Source: an uncultured Acetobacteraceae bacterium (GTDB lineage Bacteria; Pseudomonadota; Alphaproteobacteria; Acetobacterales; Acetobacteraceae). From it: 47,716 nucleotides of DNA. The position numbers and the translations under genes are program-made. Below are positions 4,471 to 47,716 of this stretch, piece after piece. The stretch is from positions 1 to 47,716 of the forward strand of contig CALMVO010000047.1 of the NCBI GenBank assembly GCA_937873205.1, in the 5' to 3' direction. A model generated the notes under the pieces. It was not told the origin of the DNA. It saw only the letters and a program-made list of their open reading frames with translations, and did no database searches. The stretch's first letter is position 1; every line of letters begins with the position of its first letter.

Positions 4471-4857
4471 TCAACGCGCCATGAAATCGGCCAGCGACCG
4501 GCTCAGCGCCTCCGCGTCGGCGCTGGCCGCCCGGGTCTCCTCCGCCAGCCGCGCGAACCACTCCCCCGGCTCGACCAGGCGGGTGTTGAGCGCGATGCCG
4601 CGCACCACCAACGCGATGCTGGCGCGCAGCCGGCCGCGGCTCAGCTCCAGCAGGTAGCGGTTCTGGCCGAGCTCGACCGACAGCGCCTCGGTCCGTCCCG
4701 TACCCCCGAACAGGCCGCCGCGGCTTCTGCGGATCTCCACCCGGTCCGGCAGCGCCTCCTTCACCCGGAGCGCGAAGGCACCGAGGCTGTCCTGCGCGTT
4801 CCGCTCGAACCGGCGCAGCCAGGCGGCCTGGCCGTCGAAGTCGAGCTGCCCGCTCAC
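4471..4857 (-). CDS. Conserved hypothetical protein in TelA/YbjQ operon
   Basis: The product has 128 residues from a GTG that overlaps the telA-like stop by 4 bp (GTGA). I do not recognise the family. It is soluble, without signal peptide or membrane helix. It opens with MSGQLDFDGQAAWLRRFERN, has a basic, glycine-containing turn (RRSRGGLFGGTGR), a short beta-like stretch (RYLLELSRGRLRASIALVVRGIAL is the region, about residues 67-91) and a C-terminal helix rich in Ala and Glu. Tight coupling on both sides suggests that it works with TelA and the YbjQ-repeat proteins. No function is proposed. Confidence 0.7.
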   Translation of the reverse strand: MSGQLDFDGQAAWLRRFERNAQDSLGAFALRVKEALPDRVEIRRSRGGLFGGTGRTEALSVELGQNRYLLELSRGRLRASIALVVRGIALNTRLVEPGEWFARLAEETRAASADAEALSRSLADFMAR

Positions 4858-6116
4858 GACGCCGCCGTCCCGTCCGCCAGAGCGTGCGTCCGGACGCCCC
4901 GCATGCCCGAGATCAGCCGGGTGCGGATCTCCGACAGCTTTGCCTCGCGCTGGACATCCGCCGCCGCGACCTCGCGCTCGATGTCGATCACCTCGTGCAT
5001 GGTGCGGATGGCCTCGTCCGCCGCCTGGGCCAGCGCGTCGATGTCGCGCTGGTCGCCACCCAGGCTGCGCGCCGCCGACACCGCCGCATCGTGTGCGCCC
5101 TTCGACGCCAGCAGGGTGATCTGCCGCGCCGCCTCGTCGAGCCGGCCTGACTCGTCGGCGGCTCGCCTGATCTCCACCTGCACCACCGCCTGCGACGCCA
5201 CCGCCATCAGGCGCGGGATCACCACCAGCATGCCGTTCGAGATCTTCATCATCCGCGTTTCGGCCGCCTGACGGTTCTGTCCGACGATCGGGATCAGCAG
5301 CGCCGAGCCGACAAGCGTCTCGCGCATCTCGGCGATCTTGCCGCGAAAGTTGGCGATCGCGGCCCGCAGCTCCATCATGTCGGCGGCATCCACCGCGTCG
5401 CCGCTCCGCACCGCCCCCTGCCGGAGCGCCTCCAGCTCGTGCCCGCCACGATCGAGTGCGATCTGGCCGGCGGCGATCTCGATCTTCAGCCCGTGCAGAC
5501 TCTCCCGGATCGCCACCGCCTGCTGGTCCAGCAGCGCGATCGAGACCGCGAGGTCGGCCTTTGTCCGCCGTGCCTTGGCCTGTTCCGCATCCATGAGGTC
5601 GAGGAACTTGCGACGGCCCTCCTCGAACCCCTTGAAGGCGGTGCGCGCGTCGGCGGCAAGCCCGAGCACCCTGCCGATCAGTCCCCGCCGCGGTGGCGGC
5701 AGGCCGCCGGCGGCCTCGGCCTGCAGGTCCTGGATGCGCAGGATCTTGACGCCGTCGATGACGGACGCCGCGATCCGCCCGACCTCCCCGGTATCGCCGA
5801 CCCGGACTCCGGCCAAAAGCTGCCGCGACGCCTGCGCGATCCCGGCCAGCACGCCCTCGCCGTGTGCCAGCAAGCTGGCGCTCTGTCGGAAGTCGATCCG
5901 GGCCGCGGATTGCTCCGCGGCGGCGCGCTCGTCCGGCCGCAATGTCTCGACATCGACCAGCCGCGCCGGCGGGGGTTCCGGCTGCAGCCTGGGATCGACG
6001 GCGCCACCCGGCTGGACGGCGAGCCCGGTCGGCGCCGTGGCAACCGCCGGCTCCTGCAGGTCGAACGACGACAGATCGAGCGGCGCGTCCGGGTCGGTCT
6101 CTGGCAACGATCCCAC
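4854..6116 (-). CDS. telA: TelA-family (toxic anion resistance) protein
   Basis: The product has 420 residues and starts at GTG 6116. After a variable N-terminal third it has the TelA (PF05816) core: a long helical segment around residues 130-230, then LIPIVGQNRQAA, MMKISNGMLVVIPRLMAVAS and a final coiled region (VIDIEREVAAADVQREAKL). TelA proteins were named from plasmid tellurite resistance and also occur with TerD-type stress proteins; the biochemical function is unsettled. This is the first gene of a four-gene operon read leftward with 4-bp and 1-bp junctions. No strong Shine-Dalgarno precedes the GTG, so the exact start is less certain than the family. Confidence 0.85.
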   Translation of the reverse strand: MGSLPETDPDAPLDLSSFDLQEPAVATAPTGLAVQPGGAVDPRLQPEPPPARLVDVETLRPDERAAAEQSAARIDFRQSASLLAHGEGVLAGIAQASRQLLAGVRVGDTGEVGRIAASVIDGVKILRIQDLQAEAAGGLPPPRRGLIGRVLGLAADARTAFKGFEEGRRKFLDLMDAEQAKARRTKADLAVSIALLDQQAVAIRESLHGLKIEIAAGQIALDRGGHELEALRQGAVRSGDAVDAADMMELRAAIANFRGKIAEMRETLVGSALLIPIVGQNRQAAETRMMKISNGMLVVIPRLMAVASQAVVQVEIRRAADESGRLDEAARQITLLASKGAHDAAVSAARSLGGDQRDIDALAQAADEAIRTMHEVIDIEREVAAADVQREAKLSEIRTRLISGMRGVRTHALADGTAAS

Positions 6117-6220
6117 TCCAGGGTGATCGGAAACCGGAGCCTTCGCCAGATCGCCCGGTCCGTCAACCGACGGCCGACCCGGCCTTGCGGTGCCACCATG
6201 CAGCCGTCACCCTTGGCGCC

Positions 6221-7069
6221 ATGCATGATCCCGCCGACACCGTCCCAACGAACGCCACCACCGGGCCCGCCGCCTCGGCCGCCGCGGCGCAGCTGATCCG
6301 GCTGCTGGGGATCATGACGGCGCTGCGCGATCCGCAGGCGGGGTGCCCGTGGGACCAGGCGCAGACGTTCGACAGCATCGCGCCCTACACGATCGAGGAG
6401 GCCTACGAGGTCGCCGACGCCATCGCTCGACGCGATTGGGCGGCGTTGCCGGACGAGCTCGGCGACCTGCTGTTCCAGGTTGTCTACTACGCCAGCCTGG
6501 GCGAGGCCGACGGCCTCTTCGACTTCGCGACCATCGCCCGGCTCGTTGCCGACAAGATGGTGCGCCGCCATCCGCATGTGTTCGGCGATGCTGGCCCCGA
6601 GAGCCGCGACGCGGCGTGGGAGGACGGCAAGGCTGCCGAGCGGCGCAGCCGCGCCGAGCATGGCACCCTCGCTGGCATCCCGGCCGACCTGCCGGCGCTG
6701 CTACGCGCCGCCAAGCTGTGTAGCCGGGCCGCCCGCGTCGGCTTTGATTGGCCGACGCCGGCCCAGGTGCTGGACAAGCTGGACGAGGAGCTGACCGAGC
6801 TGCGCGCCGAATTGGCAGTGGCGGATCCGACGCGACTGCAGGACGAGGTCGGCGACGTGCTGTTCACCATGGCCAACCTGGCACGGTCCCTCGGCCTGAA
6901 CCCGGAGACCTGCCTTCGTCACGCGAACGCTAAATTTCAACGCCGCTTCGAGGCGATGGAACAGGCCATCGAGGCGACAGGACACGGTCTAGCCGAGACG
7001 TCGCTCTCGAAGATGGAAACCGGCTGGCGGGCGGTGAAACGGGACGAACGCGCCGCCCGGTCCGCCTGA
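6221..7069 (+). CDS. mazG: Nucleoside triphosphate pyrophosphohydrolase MazG
   Basis: The product has 282 residues from the ATG at 6221 (E. coli MazG has 263). Two MazG folds are visible. The first has CPWDQAQTF, TIEEAYEV and DELGDLLFQVVYYA, the metal-binding EExxE and ExxD type signature. The second has LDEELTELRAEL and LQDEVGDVLFTMANLARS. MazG hydrolyses NTPs to NMP and pyrophosphate and influences the stringent response and nucleotide-pool cleaning. In-frame open sequence upstream of 6221 overlaps telA on the other strand and shows no family similarity. The gene is divergent from telA (104 bp between starts) and converges on the dioxygenase gene. Confidence 0.94.
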   Translation: MHDPADTVPTNATTGPAASAAAAQLIRLLGIMTALRDPQAGCPWDQAQTFDSIAPYTIEEAYEVADAIARRDWAALPDELGDLLFQVVYYASLGEADGLFDFATIARLVADKMVRRHPHVFGDAGPESRDAAWEDGKAAERRSRAEHGTLAGIPADLPALLRAAKLCSRAARVGFDWPTPAQVLDKLDEELTELRAELAVADPTRLQDEVGDVLFTMANLARSLGLNPETCLRHANAKFQRRFEAMEQAIEATGHGLAETSLSKMETGWRAVKRDERAARSA

Positions 7070-7087
7070 TCGGTCGCTTCGGACCGA
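7070..7087. terminator. Hairpin between convergent mazG and dioxygenase genes
   Basis: The 36-bp gap between the two convergent stops holds a perfect 6-bp stem (tcggtc / gaccga) with the loop gcttcg. Its place fits a bidirectional terminator, but there is no T-tract on either side, so termination is only inferred. Confidence 0.35.
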
Positions 7088-7105
7088 CCAGGACCCGGAA
7101 GGCGA

Positions 7106-8092
7106 TCAGTGCCGGCGGGTGAGGAGCTGCGTGTCCGGCGTCGCCTCGTAGTTGTGGGTGAAATCGGCCGGCGGCTCCGGTCCCCACAAATAGAGGCTGT
7201 TCTCGACGTCGTGCGACTCGCCCTTCCAATCGTGATCCACCGATACATAGTCGATGTCGCACGAATATTCGCAGTAGCTTCCCCAGGGGTCGCGCACGTA
7301 GTGGAAGTAGTTCGAGCCCAGCACGTGGCGGCCGAGGCCCCAGCCGGCGGTGAACCCCTTGTCGGCCATCTGCGCCGCGCCGACGCCGATGTCGTTGATC
7401 TGGCCGACATCCCAGCTGCAGTGGTGGAAGCCGGGACCATCCGATTTAGCGAACGCCACCATGTGGTGGTCGCTGCCATGCACGCCGTGCAGGAACGCGA
7501 TCACGCCGCCCGCCTCGTCCGAGAGCTTGAGGCCGAGCACGCGCTGATAGAACGAGAGCATCTCCGGCACGTCGCGCGCGAACAGCAGCACATGCGCCAT
7601 GCGGCGCGGCCGCACCGCCGACGCCTGGCCCCGCATCGGCGCGCCGCGCAGATTGGCGCCGACCTCGCCGAGCCCGGTGTCCGACTTCGAGCTGGGCGAC
7701 GACTTCTCGGCCACCTTCAGCTCGACCAGCGTCCCGTCCGGGTCGCGGAACCAGAAGCCGTTGCTCTCGGAGCCAGGCGGCGGGTCCAGCCGCTCCACGT
7801 CGCAACGCTGCAGGTGCGCCTGGAACCGCTCCACGTCGTCGGCGAAGATACCGAACGAGACGTGCTGCAGCGACTTCAGCGGACCCTCGGTCAGCACGCC
7901 CCAGCGATGCGGATGACCATAGGTATAGAGCTCCAGCGTGTCGCCGCGCTCGCGAACATCGAGGCCGAACGACTGGTAGTAGCGCTGCGCCTCCTTGAGG
8001 TCCGGAACCACCAGCGCGAAATGGTCGAGCGAATGCACGCCGAGAGTGTCCGGACGCCGGGACGGAGCGATGTAATGGCCGATCTGCGTCAT
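7106..8092 (-). CDS. Type I extradiol (catechol 2,3-dioxygenase-like) ring-cleavage dioxygenase
   Basis: The product has 328 residues made of two vicinal-oxygen-chelate (VOC) modules. The N-terminal module starts LDHFALVVPDL and the C-terminal one MAHVLLFARDVPEM. The expected Fe(II) ligands are His167, His223 (or His224, in GFHHCSWDV) and Glu275 (SYCEYSCDIDY); their spacing resembles that of XylE (153, 214, 265). Such enzymes cleave catechols next to the diol with O2 in aromatic degradation. No other aromatic-degradation gene is nearby, so the substrate is unknown. A strong Shine-Dalgarno (aggaggaa on the coding strand, 8096-8103) sits 3 bases before the ATG, with a promoter-like sequence 60 bp further up. 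Confidence 0.88.
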   Translation of the reverse strand: MTQIGHYIAPSRRPDTLGVHSLDHFALVVPDLKEAQRYYQSFGLDVRERGDTLELYTYGHPHRWGVLTEGPLKSLQHVSFGIFADDVERFQAHLQRCDVERLDPPPGSESNGFWFRDPDGTLVELKVAEKSSPSSKSDTGLGEVGANLRGAPMRGQASAVRPRRMAHVLLFARDVPEMLSFYQRVLGLKLSDEAGGVIAFLHGVHGSDHHMVAFAKSDGPGFHHCSWDVGQINDIGVGAAQMADKGFTAGWGLGRHVLGSNYFHYVRDPWGSYCEYSCDIDYVSVDHDWKGESHDVENSLYLWGPEPPADFTHNYEATPDTQLLTRRH

Positions 8093-41287: not shown

Positions 41288-41716
41288 TCAGGCCTGGCCG
41301 ATATAGGCGGTCAGGCTCTCCACCGTGGCGCTCTTGCGGTCCAGCAGCTCGGCGACGACGTCGCCGATGCTGACCACGCCGACCAGCAAGCCGGCATCGA
41401 ATACCGGCAGGTAGCGCACATGGTGCTCGGTCATCAGCCGAAGCGCATCCTCGAGCGTGGCCGACGGCGTGGTCTCGTATCGGCGGGGCTTCATCGCCTG
41501 CTCCGCCGGCATCGCCCTGACGCCGGCGGGATTCAGCGCCATCGCGCGGACGATGCCGCGGTCCGACAGCACGCCCAGCAGCTCCTCGCCGCGCATGACC
41601 AGCACCGCACCGATATTGTTCCTGTGCAGGATCTCGGTCACGGCGGCGATCGGGGTCTCGGGGCTGACCCGAACGAGCGCATTGCCCTTCGCCGCAAGGA
41701 TCGATGCTATCGGCAT
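41288..41716 (-). CDS. Tandem CBS-domain protein
   Basis: The product has 142 residues from ATG 41716 (cgggagtgggg upstream); an in-frame longer start lacks support. Two CBS motifs are visible: VSPETPIAAVTEILHRNNIGAVLV with GVLSDRGIVRA, and TTPSATLEDALRLMTEHHVRYLPV with GVVSIGDVV. Stand-alone CBS pairs bind adenine nucleotides or NAD-type ligands and regulate partners. The gene lies 116 bp after the 59-aa ORF, on the same strand as the SPFH/ATPase operon, and could be its last member. It converges on the chemoreceptor gene with 13 bp between stops. Confidence 0.88.
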   Translation of the reverse strand: MPIASILAAKGNALVRVSPETPIAAVTEILHRNNIGAVLVMRGEELLGVLSDRGIVRAMALNPAGVRAMPAEQAMKPRRYETTPSATLEDALRLMTEHHVRYLPVFDAGLLVGVVSIGDVVAELLDRKSATVESLTAYIGQA

Positions 41717-41832
41717 GGCCCCACTCCCGTTCCCGGCTCGATTAGGCCGGCAAGACGGCATCGGGAGCAATCGCAATCTCGCAGTGCCGCGCTCGGTGAT
41801 CAGTGAGCCACGCGGCGAAGCCCCTGGCCTCC

Positions 41833-42012
41833 CTACTCCAGCGGATCAGTCGAGAAGATCGGCGCCCCGTCCGACGACGGCGCCGGCGCCGGGTCTCCCG
41901 GGCGACGGGCGGCCGAGCCGTCCCGCGCGGTCTCCGCCGGCTCGGCCGTCGGCGCCACGTCCGGCCGTATAACGAGATCCGGTACACCGATCGGAGAGTC
42001 TGACATGCTCAT
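41833..42012 (-). CDS. 59-aa Pro/Ala-rich acidic peptide, coupled to the P-type ATPase
   Basis: This ORF starts at ATG 42012, whose first base is shared with the TAA of the ATPase gene (TAATG). A strong caggaggc lies just upstream inside the ATPase 3' end; ATG 42006 is a second start at better spacing. The peptide is soluble and probably disordered (DVAPTAEPAETARDG, then PGDPAPAPSSDGAP), ending FSTDPLE. Coupling and the consensus ribosome-binding site support translation. I recognise no family. It could be an accessory or regulatory peptide for the ATPase. Confidence 0.55.
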   Translation of the reverse strand: MSMSDSPIGVPDLVIRPDVAPTAEPAETARDGSAARRPGDPAPAPSSDGAPIFSTDPLE

Positions 42013-43928
42013 TATGCCTCCTGAAACTTGAGCAGCCGGCCGGCATTCGCCATCACCGCCAGCGTGCCGACGTTATGCGCGACCGCCGCGATCAATGCAC
42101 CGCTTGGTCCCAGCACACCGGCTGCAGCCAAACCGATGATCGCCGCGGTCCAGCCGAGCCCGAGCCCGACATTGACGTGGATGGTGGTGCGGCAGCGCCG
42201 GCTCAGCCGCACGCAGGTCGCCAGGCGGCGCAGGTTGCTGGTCATCAGCACCAGGTCGGCCGAGGCCAGCGCCGCATCGGTGCCGTGGCCGCCCATGGCG
42301 ACGCCGACCGCGCCGGCCTTCAGCGCCAGGCTGTCGTTGATGCCGTCGCCCACCACCATCGGCCGGAACCCGGCCCTGGTTTCGGCCAGCACGCGGTCGA
42401 GCTTCTCGTGCGGCAGCGCCTCGGCGCGGAACTCGGGGATCCGCAGCAGCGAGGCGATGCGCCGCGCGACCGGCGTCCGGTCGCCCGTGAGCAGCAGCAT
42501 TCGACGCAGCCCGAGTTGGCGCAGATCCTCCAGCGCCGCCTCCGCCTCCGGACGCGGCTCATCCGCCAGCAGCATCCAGCCGATGAAGCGGCCGTCCTCC
42601 GCCAGGCCGGCGATCGGCCCGTCATGATCGGGCGGCGGCGGGGCCGCGATGCCGAGATCGTCGAACAGCTCCGGCCGTCCCATAGCCAGCGATCCGCCGG
42701 CACCCTCGGCGGCCACCCCGAAGCCCGGCAGCTCGCGCAGCTCGCGCAGCGGGAGGCGCTCCCCCTCCGGCACCAGCGCCGCCAGCGCTCGCGACGCCGG
42801 ATGCGTGCTGGCCGACCCCAGCGCTGCCGCCCGCGCCACCAGCGCCTCCTGCGTCACCCCCGGTTCGGCTGCCATCCCGACCAGGCGAAGCTCGCCCAGC
42901 GTGACCGTGCCCGTCTTGTCCAGCACCACCGAATTCACCGTGGCCAGCTGCTCCAGGAAGGCGGCGCTCTTCACCAGGATGCCGTGCCGCGCCGCCACCG
43001 CCAGTGCCGCCACCGAGGTTGCCGGCGCCGCCAGCACCACCGCGCACGGGCAGGCCGCGACCAGCACCGCCAGCGATGTGGAAACCAGCCCGGTGGCGAA
43101 CCACACCCCAGCCGCGATCAGCAGCACCAGCACCATGTAGGCGCCGGCATAGCGCTCCAGCAGCCGCGTCACCGGCGGCTTGGCCCGCTCCGCCTGCTGC
43201 ATCAGCCCGATCACCCGGCCCAGCGTGGTGCTGTCGCCGATCCGCTCGACCTCGACCAGCAGCAGCCCGGACAGGTTGATCGAGCCCTCAAACACCGCCG
43301 ATCCCGGCGCCACCTCCTCCGGTACGGACTCACCGGTGATCGGCGCGTTGTCCATGCTCGACTGCCCGTCGCGCACGACGCCGTCCGCCGGCATGCGGTC
43401 GCCAGCGCGAAGCTGGACGACATCGCCGACGCGAAGCGCCGCGGTCCCCACCTCCTCCACGCCGCCGTCCGCCAGCACCCGGCGGGCGCTGGTCTGGGTC
43501 AGCCGGCGCAGCGCCCGCAGCGCCTCCTGGCCGCCGATCAGCGACCGCTCCTCCAGCACGTGGCCCACCGTCATCACCAGCGGCAACAGGGCGGCGGTGA
43601 ACAGGTCGCCCTCCGCCCAGCAGGCCAGCACGGCGAGCGCCACGAGCTGGTCGGTCAGCCCGTGCAGGTCCGGATGGCGCAGGCTGTGCCAGGCCGCCGC
43701 CAGCGCCGGCACCGCCACCAGCAGGGCCGCCAGCCCGGCCACCAGCGCTACCAGCTCGCCGCGCCCCGGCAGCAGCACCTGCAGGCCAGCCGCCATCACC
43801 AGCAGGCCGGCGGTGAACATCGACAGCGTCAGCTGCACGCCGAGCGTACGCCGCTCGCCAAGGCTGAGCAGTCCGCCCAGCGACGGGCCGGAAGCGGGGC
43901 CGCCGCCCTCGATCGCCACTCCGCTCAT
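42012..43928 (-). CDS. P1B-type heavy-metal ATPase without N-terminal HMA domain
   Basis: The product has 638 residues. All P-type ATPase motifs are present: actuator TGES, membrane metal site CPC (293-295), phosphorylation site DKTGTVT (Asp337), SxxHP (STHPASRAL) and hinge VGDGINDSLAL. The N-terminus is only a short polar stretch with no HMA fold, CxxC or His-rich segment. The last helix pair carries AAVAHNVGTLAVMANAG, unlike the usual Cu+ or Zn2+ signatures. Metal export is likely but the metal is undecided. The gene follows the third SPFH gene by 10 bp and is coupled to the 59-aa ORF. Confidence 0.88.
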   Translation of the reverse strand: MSGVAIEGGGPASGPSLGGLLSLGERRTLGVQLTLSMFTAGLLVMAAGLQVLLPGRGELVALVAGLAALLVAVPALAAAWHSLRHPDLHGLTDQLVALAVLACWAEGDLFTAALLPLVMTVGHVLEERSLIGGQEALRALRRLTQTSARRVLADGGVEEVGTAALRVGDVVQLRAGDRMPADGVVRDGQSSMDNAPITGESVPEEVAPGSAVFEGSINLSGLLLVEVERIGDSTTLGRVIGLMQQAERAKPPVTRLLERYAGAYMVLVLLIAAGVWFATGLVSTSLAVLVAACPCAVVLAAPATSVAALAVAARHGILVKSAAFLEQLATVNSVVLDKTGTVTLGELRLVGMAAEPGVTQEALVARAAALGSASTHPASRALAALVPEGERLPLRELRELPGFGVAAEGAGGSLAMGRPELFDDLGIAAPPPPDHDGPIAGLAEDGRFIGWMLLADEPRPEAEAALEDLRQLGLRRMLLLTGDRTPVARRIASLLRIPEFRAEALPHEKLDRVLAETRAGFRPMVVGDGINDSLALKAGAVGVAMGGHGTDAALASADLVLMTSNLRRLATCVRLSRRCRTTIHVNVGLGLGWTAAIIGLAAAGVLGPSGALIAAVAHNVGTLAVMANAGRLLKFQEA

Positions 43929-43938
43929 CGCCCGCTCC

Positions 43939-44985
43939 TCACGGCGTCCGCCCAGGCAGCAGCAGCCGGGCCCCAGTCGCGGGATCGTAGGCCTCGACCG
44001 AGCCGGCGCGATGCAGGATCGCCTGCATGCGGTCGTTGTAGAGCTTGGTCAGCAGCGCGTCGCCGGACAGCCCGCCCGTCGCCGTGGCCAACGTATCTAT
44101 GGAGGCGGTGCGCGCCGTCGCGGCGCTGGTGCGCTCGGCGGCCGCCGCGTTGGCGTCGGCCAGGATCGTGGCAGAGTCCTGCTGCGCCTTCTGCTGGATC
44201 CGGATCGCCTTGCTGCGCGCCTCCGCCACCCCGGCATCCGCCTGCTGGCCAGCGACGAGTACGCCGTCGAAGGCGGTCTTGACATCGCCGGGCAGCGCGA
44301 TGCCGAGATCGACCCGCGTCACCTCGACGCCGATCCCGGCCCCCTGGTCCTGCAGCGCCAGCAGCCGGCGGTCGATGCCGGCGACCAGGTCGGAGCGGAT
44401 GCGCTCGCGCCGGCCGCGGTCGGCGTCGCTGAGCTCGCTGTCGCTGCGCGTGACCACAAGGGTGTCGGTATCGCGCGCGGCAACCAGCGAGACCAGGCTG
44501 GCCATGGTCAGCGCGCTCAGAGCGGCCGGCACGTGCACCACCTGCCGCATATAGTCGGCCGGGTCGGTGATCCGGTAGAACAAGGTCGCGGTCAGGTGCA
44601 CGATGCCGTCCGCGGTCATGAAGAACGCCGCGTCCTCGCGGATGTCGTCGACGACGGTCCATTGCGCAGCCGCCGACCCGCTGTCGGCCGGCGGCCGCAG
44701 CGGCCCGAACGAATATTCCAGCTGCCGCTCCGGTGCCGGCAGGAACACCACGCGCTCGATCGGACGCGGCCAGGCCAGCAGCAGCCCGGCCCCCTGCACC
44801 TGCACGACGCGCCCGAACCGCAGCACCACCGCCCGGCTGTTCGACGAGACCTGGCGGATGTTCGAGAACGGCCAGGCCAGTGCTGCCAGCAGCACCAGCG
44901 CGAAGATCACCCGGAAGGCGAGCCCGATCGCCTGCGCCCACGGGCCGGCGACGTCCGCCGCCCCGGCCCGGGCGGCGCCGCTCAT
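43939..44985 (-). CDS. SPFH/Band-7 protein, HflK/HflC-like (third of three)
   Basis: The product has 348 residues from an ATG that overlaps the preceding SPFH stop by 4 bp. One N-terminal membrane helix (FRVIFALVLLAALAWPF, about 26-42) is followed by the SPFH domain (SSNSRAVVLRFGRVV, GAGLLLAWPRPIERV, LTATLFYRITDPADY) and an Ala/Glu-rich helical region (VAEARSKAIRIQQKAQQDSATIL). HflK/HflC form a membrane cage around FtsH in E. coli. No ftsH or usual hflKC neighbours are seen here, so this looks like a paralogous, ATPase-linked set. Confidence 0.85.
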   Translation of the reverse strand: MSGAARAGAADVAGPWAQAIGLAFRVIFALVLLAALAWPFSNIRQVSSNSRAVVLRFGRVVQVQGAGLLLAWPRPIERVVFLPAPERQLEYSFGPLRPPADSGSAAAQWTVVDDIREDAAFFMTADGIVHLTATLFYRITDPADYMRQVVHVPAALSALTMASLVSLVAARDTDTLVVTRSDSELSDADRGRRERIRSDLVAGIDRRLLALQDQGAGIGVEVTRVDLGIALPGDVKTAFDGVLVAGQQADAGVAEARSKAIRIQQKAQQDSATILADANAAAAERTSAATARTASIDTLATATGGLSGDALLTKLYNDRMQAILHRAGSVEAYDPATGARLLLPGRTP

Positions 44986-46067
44986 TGCACCCTACCGGGA
45001 CCGGGCGCCCTTCCCGGGGCGGTCGGCGCGACCAGGGGCGGCTGCGGCGGCGTCCCCGGCTCCTCGACGAAGGCGCGGAAGGGGGCCGCGTCGGTACGCA
45101 GGATCAGCCGCGTGTTGTCGCCGACAATGCTGCCCAGCGTGTCGAGCGAACGCAGCAGCGTGTAGAGCTCGGGCGACGCCGCATAGGCCCGGGCGTAGAT
45201 GGTGGCGGCGTCCAGGCGGGACTTGGCCTCGATGCGGGCCGCCTCCGCATGCGCGTCCGCCACCACGATGCGGGCGTCGCGGTCGGCGTCGGACCGGATC
45301 CTGGACGCGGCGCGGTCGCCCTCGGCGGTGACCCGGTCGGCCACGGTGTTGCGCTCGGCGGTCATGCGCGTGACGGTCGCCTCCAGCGTATCGCTCGGCA
45401 GCGTGAGCCGCTCGATGCCGACCTGCACGATGTCGATGCCGTAGGTCGCCAGCACCTGCGGCGCCAGCCGCGCCCGCAGCGCCCCCTCGAAGGCGTCGAG
45501 CCGCACCTTGCCCGGATCGGTGTTGACCAGCTGCGCCAAGTCGAACTGCGCCGACACCACCTCGAGCGAGGAGCCAGCATAGCTGCGCAGCTGCTCCGCC
45601 GCCTCGTCCGGCGTGTTGCGCACCGAGCGCAGGTATTGCACCAGGTGCACCGGGTCGCGCGGCACCCGCCACTCGACGTAGGCCTGCACCAGGATGCGCA
45701 GCCCGTCCCGGGTGCCGACGTCGTGCAGCCCGGTCGACGTGGTGCGCAGCCGGACGTCGATCGGCACCACGGACTCGAACGGCGCCGGCCAGCGCAGGGC
45801 CAGGCCGGGCGCGGTCAGCACCCGCACCGGGTCGCCGAACGCCGTCACCACCAGCGCCTCGCCGGGCTCGACCACGGTGAGGCAGGCCGCCGCAAACGCC
45901 ACTGCGACGATCAGCCCGGCGAGCCCGAAGCGCCCATAGCGGCGCAGACGGAGCACGCCGCGATCCGGCCCGGCCGCCTCCCCGTGCGGGCCGTGATCGT
46001 GGCCGTGCCCATGATCATGCCCGTGGCCATGCCCGTCCTCATGGCCGTGGTGATGGTGACCGAACAC
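44982..46067 (-). CDS. HflC-like SPFH protein with histidine-rich N-terminus (second of three)
   Basis: The product has 361 residues from GTG 46067 with agggag 6 nt upstream. Residues 1-30 are extremely His-rich (GHHHHGHEDGHGHGHDHG and further His/Asp/Gly), a typical Zn/Ni/Cu/Co-binding composition. A membrane helix (GLAGLIVAVAFAAACLTVV, about 50-68) leads to an SPFH domain (EPGEALVVTAFGDPVRV, APGLALRWPAPFESV, LVQAYVEWRVPRDP) and a long helix ending YASPEL-like YAASPELYTLLRSL. In E. coli HflC the N-terminus faces the cytosol, which would put the His tract on the metal-entry side of the ATPase. Confidence 0.86.
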   Translation of the reverse strand: MFGHHHHGHEDGHGHGHDHGHGHDHGPHGEAAGPDRGVLRLRRYGRFGLAGLIVAVAFAAACLTVVEPGEALVVTAFGDPVRVLTAPGLALRWPAPFESVVPIDVRLRTTSTGLHDVGTRDGLRILVQAYVEWRVPRDPVHLVQYLRSVRNTPDEAAEQLRSYAGSSLEVVSAQFDLAQLVNTDPGKVRLDAFEGALRARLAPQVLATYGIDIVQVGIERLTLPSDTLEATVTRMTAERNTVADRVTAEGDRAASRIRSDADRDARIVVADAHAEAARIEAKSRLDAATIYARAYAASPELYTLLRSLDTLGSIVGDNTRLILRTDAAPFRAFVEEPGTPPQPPLVAPTAPGRAPGPGRVQ

Positions 46068-46138
46068 GCACGCTCCCTAAAAAACCGTCAGGCCCGACGC
46101 CGTGGCAGGGACATATCCGGGCGAACGACGGCGCGCCA

Positions 46139-47701
46139 TCAGTCGGTTCCCGACCCGGCACGGTCCGCGGCCGGCGCCAGCTCGGCGGGCGCGGTGCCGG
46201 AGTCCCCGGCCCGGAGATCGATGAGGGGCGCCACGGCTCCCGGCCCACCCAGGCGATGATCGACGATCAGCACGTGCCGGTGCGCCAGCCCGGCGACCAG
46301 TCGGTCCAGCCGGCGCTCCAGCAGGAACGGCACCGGACCGGCGGCGTCGGCGGCGCGGTCGGCGGCAAAGCCGGTCGAGCGCGCGTCCGCATCCGCCACA
46401 ACCTCGTGCGCCAGCGCCGCCGCAGCGTCGACGTCGGTCCCGGCCTGGCGCTGCGCGTCGCTCTCGCGGCTGACCGCATAGCCGCTGCCCTCGGCGATCG
46501 CGGTGTGCGCGCCGACCGCGGCGGTCTGCACCGCGTGGTAGGCGACGGCGGCACCGGGAGGCGGATGGATCGCCTCAACCACCACCGCCATCACCTGCAG
46601 CCCGGCCGGCACCGCATCCAGCTCCGCCTGCAGCGCGTTCCCGATGTCGCGCGAGAAGCTGGCGCGGTCGGCGCCGAGCACGCCGGCCAGCGTGTGCCGG
46701 GCGAAATAGTGCGCCAGCAGCCGGCTGGTGCGCGCCTGCACCTGCTTCTGCGGGTCCTGCGCGGCATAGGCCGCCGCCAGCGCCGACGCATCGCCGAGCC
46801 CCACCCGGTACACCACGCGCAGGTCGATGTTGACGCTCTCGAAGCTCTGTCGCCCGCGCGACAGGCTGGCGACCAGGTAGGCCGCCTCGGAGGGGTGCGT
46901 CTCGTCCCACAGACGGTCCTCGGACGGTCCCGGCAGCGCCTCCGCATCGGGCAGGGCGGCCAGGGCCGGACCGCCCGCATCGGCCGGACTGAAGGTGATC
47001 GGCACGTCGTGCAGCACGCCCAGCTCCATCCGCCGGAGCCGGCCCAGCGGCCAGGGCAGGAACAGGTGCAGCCCCGGCCCGAACACCGCGACCGGCCGGC
47101 CGAGCCGCTCGTAGATCGCGCGCTGGTCGACCCGCAGCGCCTCGACCCCACTCAAGCCCCAGCCGAACAGCACCAGCACCACCAGGACCGGCGCCGCCGC
47201 GGCGCGCACGAAGGCGATCGCCCAGCTGCGCGACAGGTCGATGCCGAACCAGTCGCGCACCGTCGTTGCGACCGGCCGCGGCCGTCGCAGCACCAGTGCA
47301 CCGGCCAGCGCGCTGCGCGCCACCGAACGCGCCTCGGACAGCGGCGGGAACGGCACGAACAGCGTCGCCAGCGCGCGCACCGTGATCTCGGCCGACACCA
47401 GCGCGCAGAGCGCCGCCGCCAGCAAGGCGGCATAGGCGCCGGCGCCGAGGCCGCCATACAGCAGCAGCCCGCCCACCCCATCCAGCAGCAGCACCGCCAC
47501 CGGCAGCCGCGACAGCATCGCCAGCCCAGGCGCCTCGGGCGCTCCCTCCGGGTCCATCGCCGCCAGATGCCGCTCGACCACCAGGAGCGCGAACGCTCCG
47601 ATCAGGCTGGCGACCGCCAGTGCCGCCGTCACCCCGGGCGTGGGCATGTCCTCGTCCACCCCGCCGGCCCGGCCGGTGGAGGGGTTCGCCGCCGGCAGCA
47701 T
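46139..47701 (-). CDS. HflK-like SPFH protein with extra membrane helices (first of three)
   Basis: The product has 520 residues from ATG 47701; the frame stays open to the window edge, so the true start may lie outside, and ATG 47647 is a shorter option. Three or four N-terminal helices (ALAVASLIGAFALLVV; LLLYGGLGAGAYAALLAAAL; APVLVVLVLFGWGLSGV) come before the SPFH core (VDQRAIYERLGRPVAVFGPGL, WPLGRLRRMELG, NIDLRVVYRVGLGD). E. coli HflK has one helix before SPFH. The tail has Ala-rich helices. It lies 71 bp before the His-rich HflC-like gene. Confidence 0.82.
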   Translation of the reverse strand: MLPAANPSTGRAGGVDEDMPTPGVTAALAVASLIGAFALLVVERHLAAMDPEGAPEAPGLAMLSRLPVAVLLLDGVGGLLLYGGLGAGAYAALLAAALCALVSAEITVRALATLFVPFPPLSEARSVARSALAGALVLRRPRPVATTVRDWFGIDLSRSWAIAFVRAAAAPVLVVLVLFGWGLSGVEALRVDQRAIYERLGRPVAVFGPGLHLFLPWPLGRLRRMELGVLHDVPITFSPADAGGPALAALPDAEALPGPSEDRLWDETHPSEAAYLVASLSRGRQSFESVNIDLRVVYRVGLGDASALAAAYAAQDPQKQVQARTSRLLAHYFARHTLAGVLGADRASFSRDIGNALQAELDAVPAGLQVMAVVVEAIHPPPGAAVAYHAVQTAAVGAHTAIAEGSGYAVSRESDAQRQAGTDVDAAAALAHEVVADADARSTGFAADRAADAAGPVPFLLERRLDRLVAGLAHRHVLIVDHRLGGPGAVAPLIDLRAGDSGTAPAELAPAADRAGSGTD

Positions 47702-47716
47702 GCCAAGGGGCCCGGC

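Follow-up and report, generated by a model that had tools for sequence, protein, structure and literature searches.

The window analysed here is the entire contig C47 (47,716 nt) of a 3.73-Mb draft genome of an uncultured Acetobacteraceae bacterium, and its right-hand end carries, on the minus strand, a four-gene cassette coding for three proteins of the SPFH (Band_7) superfamily and a P1B-type metal ATPase. The first gene encodes SPFH1 (46139..47716, 5'-truncated by the contig end), an HflK-like protein with a polytopic N-terminal membrane domain and an SPFH domain. It is followed by SPFH2 (44982..46067), an HflC-like protein with a GTG start, by the HflK-like SPFH3 (43939..44985), and by an HmtA-type P1B ATPase without an HMA domain (42012..43928). 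A 59-aa open reading frame (ORF; 41833..42012), which is TAATG-coupled to the ATPase gene and has AGGAGG upstream, lies outside the conserved unit. Matches to the Band_7/SPFH family (PF01145) have E-values of 4e-15 (residues 191-405), 2.8e-30, and 1.4e-13 for SPFH1, SPFH2, and SPFH3, respectively, and the ATPase scores 484 bits against TIGR01525 (cut-off 346), with the CPC and DKTGT motifs present. These Pfam and NCBIfam results agree with the initial annotation, which had listed five minus-strand ORFs encoding three SPFH proteins, a CPC-type P1B ATPase, and a 59-aa peptide. Its junction lengths of 71 bp (SPFH1/SPFH2), -4 bp (SPFH2/SPFH3), and 10 bp (SPFH3/ATPase) were correct, but the stop codon of the ATPase gene overlaps the start of the 59-aa ORF by 1 bp (..GAGGCATAATG..), not by 3. 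The SPFH1 ORF had been called as 46139-47701; that start is probably not genuine, as the reading frame runs on uninterrupted to position 47716, where the contig ends, and the orthologues are longer.

To examine the cassette, SPFH2 was used as bait in a scan of genomes from 84,980 bacterial and archaeal species; this yielded 477 relatives, the best 80 of which were fetched as loci. All 80 fetched loci carry SPFH1, SPFH2, SPFH3, and the ATPase gene in this order (in L047, the contig ends within the ATPase gene); because these loci are the ones most similar to the window, exceptions are possible among the other 397 relatives. The hosts belong to Pseudomonas, Burkholderia, Paraburkholderia, Bradyrhizobium, other Hyphomicrobiales, and Acetobacteraceae, and most junctions across the cassette loci are 4-bp overlaps. 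The same gene order is found in three further genomes of the window's family and in four plasmid copies, two of them on plasmids predicted to be conjugative. The source genome itself has a second complete cassette on contig C36 (SPFH1, a His-rich SPFH2, SPFH3, and the ATPase), and the ATPases of the two cassettes are 61% identical. With the ATPase as bait, SPFH3 was found upstream in 12 of 12 and then in 11 of 11 loci, 19 of which come from genomes that had not been selected through SPFH2. A class-wide ATPase search at E <= 1e-100 returned only the source genome itself, a result that does not imply rarity, as no more than three candidates per genome were scored.

Among the 25 genomes of one Pseudomonas genus, the ATPase and the cassette-type SPFH2 are both present in 13 and both absent from 12; scores of at least 385 bits for SPFH2 and at least 733 bits for the ATPase come from the same 13 genomes, with the two genes a few kilobases apart. 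Were the two independent, such an all-or-none pattern would be expected in about 1 in 5 million arrangements; the genomes are, however, related. A canonical HflC (~30%, 81-99 bits) is encoded in all 25. The co-occurrence of SPFH triplets and ATPases, which the initial annotation had proposed to look for across genomes, is thus seen in every fetched locus, and its idea that they make up one functional unit is strongly supported by those 80 loci, the four plasmids, the two cassettes of the host, the 19 ATPase-bait loci, and the 25-genome genus. The gene order goes beyond chance, recurring at every orthologous locus examined, and the cassette is a genuine, broadly conserved, and horizontally mobile unit.

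The 59-aa ORF, which the initial annotation had included in the unit as a coupled micropeptide, does not share this conservation. It has no Pfam or NCBIfam match and no tblastn match in the 80 loci (short low-complexity sequences are hard to detect by tblastn), and the second cassette on C36 is followed by a convergent gene with no such ORF. The GC content at its three codon positions (0.72/0.63/0.82, versus 0.78/0.52/0.91 for the ATPase gene) is ambiguous, and the peptide was rejected as a conserved partner; it may instead have diverged rapidly. Just downstream of it, on the same strand, lies a gene for a protein with two CBS domains (41288-41776; PF00571, 2.7e-19). Secreted-type proteins of up to ~170 aa are 4-bp coupled to the stop codon of the ATPase gene in L017, L018, and L019; the one in L018 has no Pfam match.

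The sequence of the ATPase sets it apart as a separate subfamily. Cassette ATPases from eight genomes score 600-832 bits, versus at most 260 bits for the next P1B pump in the same genome, and the ATPase from the window shares 53-65% identity with those from Pseudomonas cassettes, which places it in the same discrete subfamily. Residues C293-P-C295, DKTGT 337-341, N586/W593/T594, and H618-N619-x-x-T622 are near-invariant in 90 orthologues. The core motifs of P-type pumps are retained, and the fold is ordinary, as an AlphaFold2 model can be superposed on 7qbz, 4umw, and structures of CopA. ZntA-type (P1B-2) exporters, such as 4umv, share the P1B architecture with CPC and ~28% identity over the model alignment, but the cassette ATPase differs from them in lacking an HMA domain, which was not detected in a Pfam scan, and in having T594 in place of ZntA K693 (in 90 of 90 orthologues) and H618 in place of ZntA D714 (in 89 of 90), the ZntA numbers being taken from the 4umv alignment. 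The role of this K693/D714 transmembrane pair in ZntA is well established. An N-terminus with at least four His residues is found in the ATPases of 19 loci.

Besides its GTG start, SPFH2 has a feature that the initial annotation did not mention: a His-rich N-terminal tail (45927..46067, minus strand) with 13 His among the 47 residues that precede the transmembrane (TM) helix. In 84 of the 89 loci compared, at least 6 His are found in the last 45 residues before this helix, with a median of 15. Such tails are unlikely to be an effect of selecting the loci, because most of the BLAST matches that ranked them begin past the tail. The tail is predicted to be on the cytosolic side, given that arginines flank the TM helix on its N-terminal side and, by analogy, that the TM helix of Escherichia coli HflC lies within the first residues; it could provide metal binding to a pump without a metal-binding domain of its own. 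SPFH2 is 49-65% identical to its orthologues and matches HflC (7vhp_G) by sequence with an E-value of 4.3e-20. None of the three SPFH proteins reaches the respective family cut-off: SPFH2 scores 100.8 bits against TIGR01932 (hflC, cut-off 134.4), whereas SPFH1 and SPFH3 score 42.8 and 79.1 bits, respectively, against TIGR01933 (hflK, cut-off 159.4). In one Pseudomonas locus (L089, 10933-11990), the SPFH3 gene appears to be broken or frameshifted, with a 216-aa ORF and a 409-bp gap before the ATPase gene.

The orthologues of SPFH1 are mostly 614-750 aa long and have ~7 hydrophobic segments, whereas four are seen in the window. Judging from these lengths, the 5' end of the gene has almost certainly been cut off by the contig end, and ~100-200 N-terminal residues with ~3 TM helices are missing. 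SPFH1 carries an additional six-helix membrane domain, for which a Pfam scan of all SPFH1 members detected no second family. In a model built from 24 sequences (mean pLDDT 73), the SPFH part aligns to HflK (7vhq_E, Z 16.0). The six-helix domain superposes on the cation diffusion facilitator (CDF/ZnT) proteins YiiP (8f6k_B, Z 14.6, 3.8 Å over 198 residues) and, with lower scores, ZnT1 and ZnT3; this resemblance rests on the 24-sequence model, and such Z values are reachable by chance for helical bundles. Unlike CDF proteins, SPFH1 has no conserved Asp/His metal site in TM2 or TM5, and the hhalign profile probability is 0.2%, so the likeness is one of shape only, and the candidate function of a working CDF transporter was rejected.

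By gene order, published annotation, and ATPase subfamily, the cassette belongs to the type of the hmtA cluster of Pseudomonas aeruginosa (PA2439-PA2435). The view of the initial annotation that such a unit had no functional description was therefore partly wrong: this cluster has been reported to be induced by zinc starvation and bound by Zur, and HmtA has been proposed to import Zn/Cu (PMC4542158, PMC8531726, PMC11761036, PMC8456098). In a znuA mutant, PA2437, PA2438, PA2439, and PA2435 were upregulated 14.4-, 10.6-, 9.0-, and 5.6-fold, respectively (PMC4542158), and purified Zur with zinc shifted the PA2439 promoter in an electrophoretic mobility shift assay (EMSA) (PMC8531726). The proteins HmtA, PA2438, and PA2439 were raised in Zn depletion, not all of them significantly (PMC11761036), and N-acetylcysteine raised PA2437-2439 along with other genes of the zur regulon (PMC9431628). 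The description of HmtA as a Zn/Cu importer comes with the caution that confirmation is needed (PMC8456098, PMC10393844); as cited in PMC10393844, cells overexpressing HmtA contained more zinc and copper. The SPFH proteins of the cluster are PaFlo5, PaFlo6, and PaFlo7, whose genes have been deleted in P. aeruginosa (PMC13086221); in a search of its text, that paper did not mention an ATPase partner, and zinc came up only where FtsH is described. In the literature searched, largely without subscription journals, we found no described SPFH-ATPase complex, SPFH role in metal transport, or His-rich HflC. The obligate linkage, the His-rich SPFH2 tail beside an HMA-less ATPase, the non-ZntA signature, and the six-helix domain of SPFH1 were likewise absent from that literature.

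In most Pseudomonas loci, the palindrome CGTTATATCGTAACG or a near variant, scoring above most shuffles, is found just upstream of SPFH1. Four Pseudomonas genomes carry 1-5 copies of GTTATANNGTAAC each; in a P. protegens genome, another such site precedes the gene for the type B ribosomal protein L31, and the remaining sites precede genes without a clear zinc role. Type B L31 is a zinc-independent paralogue under the control of Zur. The promoter of the cassette in the window is not visible, because SPFH1 is open to the contig end; the organism has a ZnuA gene elsewhere in its genome, and zinc regulation of its cassette may be supposed by analogy with Pseudomonas.

These data suggest the following sequence of events. 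The four genes would be made as one unit, which is consistent with their order, 4-bp overlaps, and co-occurrence. In Pseudomonas, they would be expressed at zinc scarcity through a Zur site upstream of SPFH1, as published for P. aeruginosa and supported by the conserved Zur-like palindrome. The P1B ATPase would then move Zn2+ or Cu across the inner membrane, probably inward according to the published claim for HmtA (which a 2022 review considers in need of confirmation), while the predicted cytosolic His-rich tail of SPFH2 might bind or buffer the metal in trans, replacing the absent HMA domain. Finally, SPFH1-3 might form an HflK/C-like assembly, anchored by the six-helix domain of SPFH1, that houses or stabilises the pump. 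A role of the cassette in zinc/copper homeostasis is probable, and acquisition is mildly favoured as its purpose; the reading of the cassette as an HmtA-type module for acquisition of zinc (possibly also copper) in an HflK/C-like assembly is, by a similar judgement, the one towards which we lean. The more specific parts are weaker. A hetero-oligomeric assembly around the ATPase, as suggested in the initial annotation, is a reasonable idea and would be compatible with the HflK/C-like structure, but its physical existence is tentative, as is the action of the His tail in trans. The full picture, in which SPFH1-3 form a chamber around the HMA-less ATPase, the SPFH2 tail serves as its metal-binding domain in trans, and the CDF-like domain of SPFH1 serves as a docking base, is, as a whole, unlikely.

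Several observations weigh against this acquisition reading. P1B ATPases rarely import. Deletions of PaFlo5-7 had no strong phenotype under standard conditions, which did not cover zinc, in a 2026 study of all nine SPFH proteins of P. aeruginosa (PMC13086221). One study (PMC8531726) saw hmtA mRNA remain low and escape repression when zinc was supplied, and the 2022 review leaves hmtA out of Zur binding, despite the EMSA shift of the PA2439 promoter. Genome-wide, the palindrome core is no commoner than a reversed control, the conservation of the palindrome within Pseudomonas is due in part to descent, and the regions upstream of the alphaproteobacterial and Burkholderia/betaproteobacterial copies yielded no Zur-like site. 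The His tail is missing from the Klebsiella plasmid, three relatives in the window's family, and L041. The genes neighbouring other copies were picked by eye and not tallied.

These neighbours, which speak for acquisition, include a ZIP transporter gene directly downstream of the cassette in L048 (13865-14596), with genes for an ABC ATPase, a MacB/FtsX permease, DUF3299, and DUF2946 upstream (4614-7863), as well as genes for ZnuA and an ABC ATPase in L021, and a metal ABC transporter and PCu(A)C in P. sprentiae. Just downstream of two Pseudomonas cassettes (L078, 14333-15987; L118, 10910-12576) are genes for an MbnB/TglH/ChrH-type RiPP-modifying enzyme and its DUF2063 partner, a possible metal-binding peptide system. 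Two prepilin-like ORFs are found farther upstream in L017.

Alternatively, the ATPase might work as an exporter, supplying periplasmic metalloenzymes with zinc or copper, and the SPFH proteins might organise this delivery. Export is the usual direction of P1B ATPases. The cassette on C36 (L008, 8130-14069) starts 19 bp behind a gene for a secreted calcineurin-like phosphoesterase (PF00149), and relatives from the same family (L017-L019) have a PF04185-type phosphoesterase gene two genes upstream, confirmed by Pfam in L018; both observations fit export. A PKHD hydroxylase gene is also present upstream in these relatives, again confirmed in L018. In Pseudomonas, the induction by zinc starvation and the control by Zur, together with the ZIP and ZnuA uptake genes adjoining other copies, and the cited effect of HmtA overexpression point the other way, and make export an improbable, though the best surviving, alternative. 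Somewhat less probable still is that SPFH1-3 act on the FtsH protease, as HflK/HflC do, and adjust the activity of this zinc enzyme during zinc shortage, with the ATPase no more than co-regulated. The HflK/HflC-like sequences and predicted fold fit this explanation, and the authors of published work have suggested a link to FtsH; in the source genome, the seven Band_7 matches comprise the two triplets and a stomatin-like gene on C31, with no canonical HflK/HflC pair seen. However, the SPFH genes of the cassette are linked to the ATPase as tightly as to one another, Pseudomonas hosts retain a separate canonical HflC, all three proteins fall below the hflK/hflC cut-offs, and SPFH1 has its extra six-helix domain. 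A membrane microdomain of a general kind, built by the cassette and carrying the pump as a passenger, is very improbable: SPFH proteins organise microdomains elsewhere (PMC13086221), but here one discrete ATPase subfamily comes with the triplet every time, and SPFH2 bears a metal-binding-type tail.

SPFH proteins occur in all domains of life. The cassette joins a complete SPFH triplet to a single kind of metal pump, with seemingly no exception in the sample, which bears on what SPFH proteins may enclose besides proteases. It is also relevant to the question of metal import by HmtA and other P1B ATPases, as SPFH partners could influence direction or specificity; no paper testing such an influence was found in the literature searched.

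Of the known systems, the hmtA cluster (PA2434-PA2439) is similar in having three SPFH genes (annotated as HflK-family, HflC, and HflC-family) followed by a P1B ATPase gene. The window matches its order PA2439-2437-2435 (PMC4542158), and the identity of the two rests on gene order and annotation. The window differs in having the 59-aa ORF after the ATPase gene and nothing between SPFH3 and the ATPase, where the P. aeruginosa cluster has PA2436. At the place of PA2436, three Pseudomonas loci that share the gene order of this cluster (L116, 9142-9594; L130; L134) encode a 150-aa secreted-type protein, whose N-terminus in L116 is signal-like and which Pfam does not match to any family. The HflK/HflC-FtsH system of E. 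coli resembles the cassette in the SPFH fold, with likeness to HflK in the model of SPFH1 and to HflC in the sequence of SPFH2. In contrast to that system, the cassette has three SPFH proteins rather than two, all under the hflK/hflC family cut-offs, adds the His tail of SPFH2 and the polytopic N-terminus of SPFH1, and has a P1B ATPase gene, in place of hfq-hflX, as its linked partner.

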